Part shown: piece after piece, positions 30,972 to 58,365 of the stretch
How positions within the stretch are numbered: the first letter of the stretch is position 1
How the letters are laid out: the number at the start of each line of letters is the position of its first letter
Assembly (NCBI RefSeq): GCF_038561955.2
Contig: NZ_CP138333.2
Span: forward strand, 1,054,001-1,118,000
Source of the DNA: Salinicoccus sp. Bachu38
GTDB taxonomy: Bacteria; Bacillota; Bacilli; Staphylococcales; Salinicoccaceae
DNA length: 64,000 nucleotides
Direction of reading: 5' to 3'
The notes under the pieces: generated by a model
What the model was told of the DNA's origin: nothing
The model's database searches: none
Seen by the model: only the letters and a program-made list of their open reading frames with translations
Translations under genes and position numbers: made by a program

Positions 30972-31020
30972 CTTCACAAAATTCGGAAAGTGTACTATCA
31001 TGGAACCAACCGAATAAATA

Positions 31021-31098
31021 ACCACCACTAGGGGTGTCCGCAAGGACTGAGAATTACCCTTATCACCTGATCTAGATCATACTAGCGTAGGGAAGTGG
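31021..31098 (+). promoter_or_regulatory. TPP riboswitch (THI element)
   Basis: The aptamer has the conserved parts GGGGTGTCCG, GACTGAGA, TACCCTTATCACCTGATCTAGATCAT split as usual, and GCGTAGGGAA (to 31093); P1 is CCACT 31025-31029 with AGTGG 31094-31098. It precedes ykoEDC and should switch transcription off when thiamine pyrophosphate is plentiful. Confidence 0.95.
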
Positions 31099-31118
31099 CA
31101 TATTTTACATATAATATG

Positions 31119-46200: not shown

Positions 46201-46227
46201 AGCTTTTAACTCTAAATTGAATATATT

Positions 46228-46335
46228 CCTTATCAAGAGCCAGGGGAGGAAATTGGTCCTGAGATCCTGCGGCAACCCCACTTTCAAAAGTTGAACGGTG
46301 CCAATTCCAACAAGCGTCATGCTTGGAAGATGAGG
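46228..46335 (+). promoter_or_regulatory. SAM-I riboswitch (S box) aptamer
   Basis: Conserved elements in order: CTTATCAAGAG (46229-46239), GGCAACC (46271-46277), GGTGCCAATTCC (46297-46308) and GATGAGG (46329-46335). P1 is CCTTATC (46228-46234) with GATGAGG. The downstream gene should be off when S-adenosylmethionine is high. Confidence 0.95.
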
Positions 46336-46352
46336 AGGAGCGTCTCTTGCCT

Positions 46353-54370: not shown

Positions 54371-54388
54371 CCGTCCACGAAAGTTACT

Positions 54389-54459
54389 CACTCATAGTCG
54401 GGACATTTACGGTACCCCGGTAGAAACTTGCAAGCCATATCCTTGCGATTATATGAGTG
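54389..54459 (-). promoter_or_regulatory. Guanine-type purine riboswitch
   Basis: Read on minus, P1 is CACTCATA with TATGAGTG; the core has TATAATCGC, GATATGG, AAGTTTCTACC and the loop ACCGTAAATGTCCCGACTA split as usual. The discriminating base before TATGAG is C, which selects guanine/xanthine-type ligands over adenine. The aptamer precedes xpt-pbuX. Confidence 0.96.
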
Positions 54460-54482
54460 CTTCAATATTTAAGATGTTTACA

Positions 54483-55204: not shown

Positions 55205-55867
55205 TCATCTTTTCGGTGGCTGCCATGCTTCTTTGACGCCTTCAATGATCCATACAAAAGTGTTCATCTGCATGAGCGAGACTGAGAAGCCGGCGTCATT
55301 GAACTGATGATATAGATCAGGAATCATTGGATAGTATTCCCGCTCCAGATCCGCTTTAAGACCATAAAAATGATTTCGGGCGGCTTCAGCGACCTTTTCT
55401 TCATAGAAGGCGTGGTCCATGAACATAGTATCTGCAAAAAGGACCTTTCCGCCGTCCTCCAGAAGGTCGAAATAGTGAGTGAGGACTTCCGCCTTTTCTT
55501 CGCGCTTCAGATGATGGAAGACATAGGAGCTGATGATGGTATCCACCTTGAACGGCGGTAATGGGAAATCCTGCATATCACCATCGATGATTTCGATATT
55601 TTCCGGGAGTTTGGCAGCTACCAGATAACGCATTTCTTCCGAAGGTTCGATGGGGTAGACCGTCCTGCCGGCGGCCAGAAGCTTCTTCGTCAGATTCCCT
55701 GTACCGATGCCGAATTCGATGACATGGCTGCCACTGCAGTCAGCGATCGTCTGGAGTATGCCATCATACCCTCTGAACACTTCCTTATACTGGTCGTCAC
55801 TGCCGGTTGTAAAAGTATCGTAGTCCTTGGCCCAGCCAGTGAAAATGTCGAGGAATTCCCTGCCCAT
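55205..55867 (-). CDS. yrrT: SAM-dependent methyltransferase YrrT
   Basis: 220 residues, class I methyltransferase. SAM motif I is VIEFGIGTGNLT (about 49-60); the N-terminus MGREFLDIFTGWAKDYD matches Bacillus YrrT, whose gene shares an operon with mtnN, mccA and mccB. Here it is the third gene after mccA-mccB, three bases after mccB. Its substrate is unproven; a role in methionine-to-cysteine recycling is inferred from this conserved context. Confidence 0.86.
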   Translation of the reverse strand: MGREFLDIFTGWAKDYDTFTTGSDDQYKEVFRGYDGILQTIADCSGSHVIEFGIGTGNLTKKLLAAGRTVYPIEPSEEMRYLVAAKLPENIEIIDGDMQDFPLPPFKVDTIISSYVFHHLKREEKAEVLTHYFDLLEDGGKVLFADTMFMDHAFYEEKVAEAARNHFYGLKADLEREYYPMIPDLYHQFNDAGFSVSLMQMNTFVWIIEGVKEAWQPPKR

Positions 55868-55870
55868 CGG

Positions 55871-57957
<2,087 letters not shown>

Positions 57958-57983
57958 TCTCTTTCTCCTTTCCAAATCAGGGT

Positions 57984-58094
57984 ACAAAAAAAGGCATGCA
58001 CGAGTAGAAGCTACTCATGCATACCTTGAGGTCATCATTTGCATTTACCTATACAGTCCCCGAAAGGGATGCAATATTACGCATATTCAGACAT
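57984..58094 (-). promoter_or_regulatory. Structured leader of mccA with intrinsic terminator
   Basis: Read on minus, the leader of about 110 bases holds: stem TTGCAT/AATGCAA-type (TTGCAT with ATGCAA) enclosing a CCC-TTTC-GGGG hairpin; AGGT/ACCT; then a strong 15-bp terminator stem (GGTATGCATGAGTAG with CTACTCGTGCATGCC) and eight T residues (57986-58022 region). TTGCATCCC can also pair partly with GGTATGCA of the terminator. It looks like a transcription attenuator or riboswitch, but it lacks T-box and SAM riboswitch core sequences. I cannot assign a class. Confidence 0.55.
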
Positions 58095-58100
58095 CTCTGC

Positions 58101-58128
58101 AGAATATATGGGAATGCACCGCTTTCAA
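58101..58128 (-). promoter_or_regulatory. Promoter of mccA-mccB-yrrT
   Basis: On minus, TTGAAA (58123-58128), 16 bases, TATTCT (58101-58106). Confidence 0.5.
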
Positions 58129-58140
58129 TAAAAAATCACT

Positions 58141-58365
58141 GTAGAAGGAGGGAATTGCGCAAACGAACCTTGTGTATGGCATGAGTATTTGTACAACAGC
58201 ACGCCAGACAGCAACAGTTCATTCTACGCATATGATTCTCTCCCTTCTTTGTCAGATAATTTCTTATTAGGGCCATCTTATATAACCCAGAATCTTCTGT
58301 CAATGCTTTTTGGCAAATTTCCTACTATTTCACTTGGAATTGTGATGTATAGCGGTTTCGTTCAT
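58141..58365. other. Intergenic stretch between the mccA promoter and panE end
   Basis: About 225 bases of lower G+C than the genes around. No convincing gene, and no clear terminator for the leftward panE transcript was found. An open frame on + starting near 58189 overlaps panE in antisense and is not supported. Confidence 0.4.

Follow-up and report, generated by a model that had tools for sequence, protein, structure and literature searches.

The window, the whole stretch of 64,000 nucleotides from Salinicoccus sp. Bachu38 that was analysed, harbours on its minus strand the operon mccA-mccB-yrrT. On this strand a promoter, a Shine-Dalgarno site, a 31-codon open reading frame (ORF), a spacer of ~108 nt and a terminator hairpin with its T run follow one another in front of mccA, which starts at 57957. 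The features are collected in Table 1.

Table 1. Coordinates of the mccA-mccB-yrrT operon and of the elements in its leader.
Feature	Position	Strand	Remarks
yrrT	55205..55867	minus	methyltransferase; 67% identical, adjacent in Desemzia
mccB	55871..57028	minus	Cys/Met metabolism PLP enzyme (PF01053); 84% identical, adjacent in Desemzia
mccA	57025..57957	minus	cystathionine beta-synthase type (PF00291); 74% identical in Desemzia
Intrinsic terminator hairpin, then T run	57991..58027	minus	17-pair stem, 3-nt loop
Strand 3, GTATGCATGAGTA	58012..58024	minus	terminator 5' arm and predicted antiterminator partner
Leader peptide ORF	58136..58231	minus	31 codons plus stop, MRRMNCCCLACCCTNTHAIHKVRLRNSLLLQ; own Shine-Dalgarno site
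Anti-Shine-Dalgarno strand, CAATTCCCTCCTTC	58144..58157	minus	predicted from fold; overlaps ORF end
Strand 2, TACTCATGCCATAC	58174..58187	minus	common to protector and antiterminator; inside ORF, directly after cysteine codons
Second cysteine run	58193..58201	minus	codons 11-13; from sequence
Strand 1, TGGCGTG, protector	58200..58206	minus	Leu-Ala-Cys codons; pairs with CATGCCA of strand 2 in folds
First regulatory cysteine run	58208..58216	minus	codons 6-8; from sequence
Shine-Dalgarno region of leader ORF, GAAGGGAGAGAAT	58235..58247	minus	sequence and fold
Promoter TTGACA-17-TAAGAT	58275..58303	minus	10/12 consensus, sigma-70-type; hexamers and spacing identical in Desemzia

Promoter, leader ORF and terminator

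Transcription would start near 58268, just 3' of TTGACA-17-TAAGAT. As this 10/12 promoter at 58303..58275 is kept in the homologous leader of Desemzia, the leader is ~280 nt long, instead of the ~110 bases that a first-pass annotation of positions 57984-58128 had proposed from a start near 58094. The promoter assumed for that start, TTGAAA-16-TATTCT (58128..58101), matches 9/12 consensus positions; shuffles give 1.3 such sites in the region and the Desemzia leader has no counterpart of it. Folded as a 310-nt sequence, the leader is far more stable than its shuffles (z -5.7).

Behind the promoter lies a translatable short ORF with a good Shine-Dalgarno site 5' of its start. Six of its 31 codons specify cysteine, the product of the mccA-mccB-yrrT operon and hence a cognate signal, and they are arranged as CCC-LA-CCC; uORFs with CCC occur in 0.07% of shuffles. 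Both ORF and ribosome-binding site lie just outside 57984-58128 and were absent from the first-pass annotation, which covered the variable spacer and the terminator of a longer leader. The peptide has no family match in NCBIfam or Pfam. A search of 157 genomes from the same order gave no close match to the uORF other than in the genome itself, and among 398 genomes of the phylum the exact motif occurs in this genome only. A search of the leader DNA against plasmids gave no match.

The strong intrinsic terminator with which the leader had been said to end is indeed there (58027..57991) and precedes the first gene, mccA. Of the two layouts that had been suggested, attenuator or riboswitch, the former stands, whereas a metabolite-binding riboswitch for homocysteine, SAH or cysteine within 57984-58128 is extremely improbable. 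The compact hairpins 5' of the terminator would suit such a structure, and the words on which it was built are present: CCC-TTTC-GGGG is found literally at 58068..58058, TTGCAT and ATGCAA at 58074..58069 and 58044..58039, AGGT and ACCT at 58050..58047 and 58032..58029. However, neither the TTGCAT-ATGCAA stem nor the AGGT-ACCT pairing appears in the minimum-energy fold or in Desemzia, the closest homologous leader, and conservation across the leader is lowest in the spacer, in contrast to the retained uORF and terminator. When 57950..58360 was searched against Rfam at a permissive threshold, matches stayed at chance level, and no Rfam family matches the leader. The reported lack of T-box and SAM-I cores is confirmed, as the leader contains no specifier hairpin, T-box bulge or Rfam T-box match and no match to the SAM riboswitch (S-box, RF00162), whose only match in the window lies at 46227..46336 (plus). 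Further Rfam matches in the window are a purine riboswitch (54375-54476, minus) and a TPP riboswitch (31020-31110, plus).

Predicted alternative pairings and the position of the ribosome

Based on the predicted fold, the Shine-Dalgarno region also forms one strand of an outer helix with 58157..58144 as its partner, and the long hairpin closed by these two strands, the Shine-Dalgarno region and CAATTCCCTCCTTC, encloses the entire leader ORF. The Desemzia counterpart of CAATTCCCTCCTTC reads AATTCTCTCTTTT, and the outer-helix pairs are kept there, one of them through a change on both sides. The protector helix is likewise kept, with one two-sided and two one-sided changes (columns 107-112/142-147), as is the terminator, in which two pairs have changed on both sides. 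In total, 13 of the 84 consensus pairs have changed on both sides between window and Desemzia and still pair; besides the one in the outer helix, the one in the protector and the two in the terminator, they fall into less certain helices.

Nowhere in the leader does the terminator 5' arm find a better partner than strand 2. The duplex of strands 2 and 3 comprises 13 core pairs with one bulge and as a whole amounts to -19.2 kcal/mol. This pairing exceeds dinucleotide shuffles (p=0.006) and synonymous recodings (p=0.021), and pairing in the Desemzia leader also exceeds synonymous recodings (p 0.033). Complementarity at p<0.05 is found in 19/19 Carnobacteriaceae-type leaders including that of the window, which are related and therefore do not amount to 19 independent tests. 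Sequence and comparison establish the ORF, the cysteine runs, the terminator, the complementarity and their conservation.

To model the influence of the ribosome, a leader ending with the terminator 5' arm was folded while the ribosome footprint was blocked, using 12 footprints and equilibrium folds without kinetics. An A site placed on Cys6, Cys7 or Cys8 leads to ~16 predicted antiterminator pairs for all 12 footprints, as opposed to none when there is no ribosome or when it stands between about codon 12 and mid-ORF. The effect is lost from codons 11-12 onward, the exact codon varying with the footprint, and a ribosome exactly at the stop codon yields 0 or 13-15 pairs depending on the footprint. 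Masked folds of the Desemzia leader go in the same direction, and in both leaders protector and antiterminator are mutually exclusive in silico and switched by ribosome position. Stalls on non-cysteine codons before the cysteine runs also yield the antiterminator, and specificity therefore rests on the placement of the cysteine codons. Folds of the complete transcript favour the terminator over the antiterminator, also when a stalled ribosome is included; the model thus depends on the antiterminator arising before the terminator, the order known from classical attenuators.

Taken together, the leader is very probably a cysteine-responsive, ribosome-mediated transcription attenuator with a cysteine leader peptide. 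Its predicted sensor, the ribosome on the cysteine codons 58216..58193, lies outside 57984-58128. From the modelled folds we infer the order of events. A ribosome would be at work on the 31-codon leader peptide as RNA polymerase synthesizes the remaining leader. With ample cysteinyl-tRNA the ribosome would clear all six cysteine codons, allowing strand 2 (58187..58174) to pair back with the Leu-Ala-Cys codons; with strand 2 held by this protector, the terminator 58027..57991 would form and mccA-mccB-yrrT would be switched off. When cysteinyl-tRNA is scarce, the ribosome would stall at the CCC codons 58216..58208 and cover strand 1, so that strand 2 could pair with 58024..58012 before the 3' arm of the terminator is made. 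With the antiterminator formed first, transcription would run on into the operon. If no ribosome is present, the hairpin of Shine-Dalgarno and anti-Shine-Dalgarno strands would hold strand 2 and the terminator would again form.

Distribution among mccA loci and probable transfer of the operon

We surveyed 395 Lactobacillales genomes, 74 of which encode MccA at E<=1e-85, and examined the 74 upstream regions. A CC-uORF together with a terminator is found at 67/74 of these loci. CC-uORFs preceded by a Shine-Dalgarno site are present in 70/74 leaders compared to 1.25% in shuffles, and CCC-uORFs in 54/74 compared to 0.07%. Outside Lactobacillales the combination of CC-uORF and terminator occurs at 1/136 mccA loci (L156), in a control set that includes L156 and was compiled once the loci had been inspected a first time. 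When the orders to which genomes G165 and G454 belong were searched for mccA, the result was L156, with the leader, and 38 other non-Lactobacillales genomes; in the loci fetched from these 38, the leader was absent from 30/30. Seven Lactobacillales loci (L211, L222, L224, L245, L261, L272, L280) do not have the full set of CC-uORF and terminator under the criteria applied, and L245, L261 and L280 among them contain a cysteine uORF.

Apart from their cysteine runs, the Lactobacillales leader peptides have almost no sequence in common. This bears on the alternative that the ORF product works as a small cysteine-rich protein, perhaps one that binds metals or thiols, and not as a sensor. While the cysteine content and the dedicated ribosome-binding site would agree with such a protein, the divergence of the peptides, the lack of an NCBIfam or Pfam family, the constant location ahead of a terminator and the RNA pairing beyond synonymous recodings in both window and Desemzia all argue against it, and we regard it as highly unlikely.

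The predicted pairings vary between groups. The stretch after the cysteines pairs with the terminator 5' arm in leaders of the Carnobacteriaceae type and of several lactobacilli, through sequences that differ by group. In enterococcal leaders the 60 nt that follow the cysteines are not significantly complementary to the terminator, with the exception of Enterococcus faecalis itself. The idea that all Lactobacillales leaders share one antiterminator geometry was therefore rejected, as the enterococcal ones do not fit. Among 72 distinct leaders, the antiterminator is clearly higher on stalling than at the stop codon in 28, and the reverse holds in 8. The enterococcal-type leaders (L228, L232, L252-L260, L266-L281) carry CCC or CCCC uORFs and terminators, and in some of them the cysteine codons are covered by an additional hairpin (GTTGTATGGTGC...GCAGCATAC). 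The 45-aa 'hypothetical protein' WP_002355203.1 of E. faecalis (MTKKQASPFLETESCCCMV..., L170:2274-2411) corresponds to the mccA leader uORF and, judged by position and content, is a cysteine leader peptide. Mobilizable Lacticaseibacillus plasmids (L171, L172, L236, L237) harbour an mccA-like operon with CCC leader peptide and terminator, neighboured by cystathionine-type and serine acetyltransferase genes, and are a possible vehicle for transfer of the operon.

In contigs sampled at one genome per species, the best match of MccA is that of Desemzia sp. RIT 804 (Carnobacteriaceae, L061), where mccA, mccB and yrrT have the same order as in the window. Promoter hexamers and their spacing, ribosome-binding site, uORF and terminator are all retained in its leader, and MNCCCL-CCC is kept in the homologous uORF, MRKMNCCCLVCCCCLNENKHSCLTPDSFA. 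Because MccA matches reach only ~42% in the 11 congeners searched and at most ~50% in the other families of the order, compared to 74% in Desemzia, the donor of the operon was probably Carnobacteriaceae-like. Operon and leader seem to have been acquired horizontally.

An apparently new arrival could still be governed from its promoter. CymR might control transcription as in Bacillus and Staphylococcus, with leader ORF and terminator persisting as donor relics of little effect: CymR acts directly on mccAB in S. aureus (PMC2869319), and TAGTAGGAAATT just 5' of the -35 hexamer (58327..58316) may, by resemblance only, be a CymR site. We consider this unlikely, as ORF, both cysteine runs, protector, antiterminator and terminator are intact, the changes relative to Desemzia keep the pairs, and a full terminator ahead of the first gene has to be handled somehow. 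The earlier doubt that CymR at the promoter is the whole story is upheld by a leader that is, in our reading, a cysteine attenuator.

Comparison with known control of cysteine genes

In Firmicutes, control by cysteine has been described via CymR, CysR and T-boxes, and to our knowledge amino-acid leader peptides have rarely been reported in this phylum. The mechanism proposed for the mccA leader is of a known, classical kind. No description of cysteine leader peptides in Lactobacillales was found in the open papers, to which the search was confined. Control of mccAB by a cysteine attenuator throughout Lactobacillales appears to be undescribed, in the sense of an absence from the searched sources that is no proof of novelty. 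We lean, with some reserve, towards the view that attenuation by cysteine leader peptides is the usual, undescribed control of mccAB across Lactobacillales (Carnobacteriaceae, Enterococcus, lactobacilli and mobilizable plasmids), in which fast-changing RNA strands surround fixed cysteine runs, and that it moved with the operon into Staphylococcales, in which these genes are otherwise under CymR. A family of this kind, present at most mccA loci sampled in Lactobacillales, would be an additional cysteine sensor of food and gut bacteria. It would also account for the annotated E. faecalis protein as a leader peptide and offer an example of an operon transferred along with its own RNA switch.

Individual elements have precedents. 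In clostridia a cysteine T-box precedes ubiG-mccBA (PMC2940859), with the same enzymes, the same signal (charging of tRNA-Cys) and premature termination; it senses the tRNA directly and without translation, while the mccA leader has no T-box match. Leader peptide attenuation in Firmicutes is represented by the histidine leader peptide on hisS/hisZ in bacilli (PMC2965389), which differs in amino acid and genes. The uORFC-8-2 motif of cysS in Rhodobacterales, for which attenuation by cysteinyl-tRNA shortage has been predicted (PMC8632094), also combines a uORF with tandem cysteine codons, an alternative stem and an intrinsic terminator; compared by description, it differs from the mccA leader in belonging to Alphaproteobacteria, in having two cysteine codons and in preceding a cysteinyl-tRNA synthetase gene. 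In Actinobacteria, leader peptides with a run of cysteine codons are located 5' of cysteine genes, namely cys operons and cbs (PMC1262725). No terminator hairpins were found in these leaders and Rho was suggested, whereas the mccA leader has a strong intrinsic terminator and a defined predicted antiterminator.
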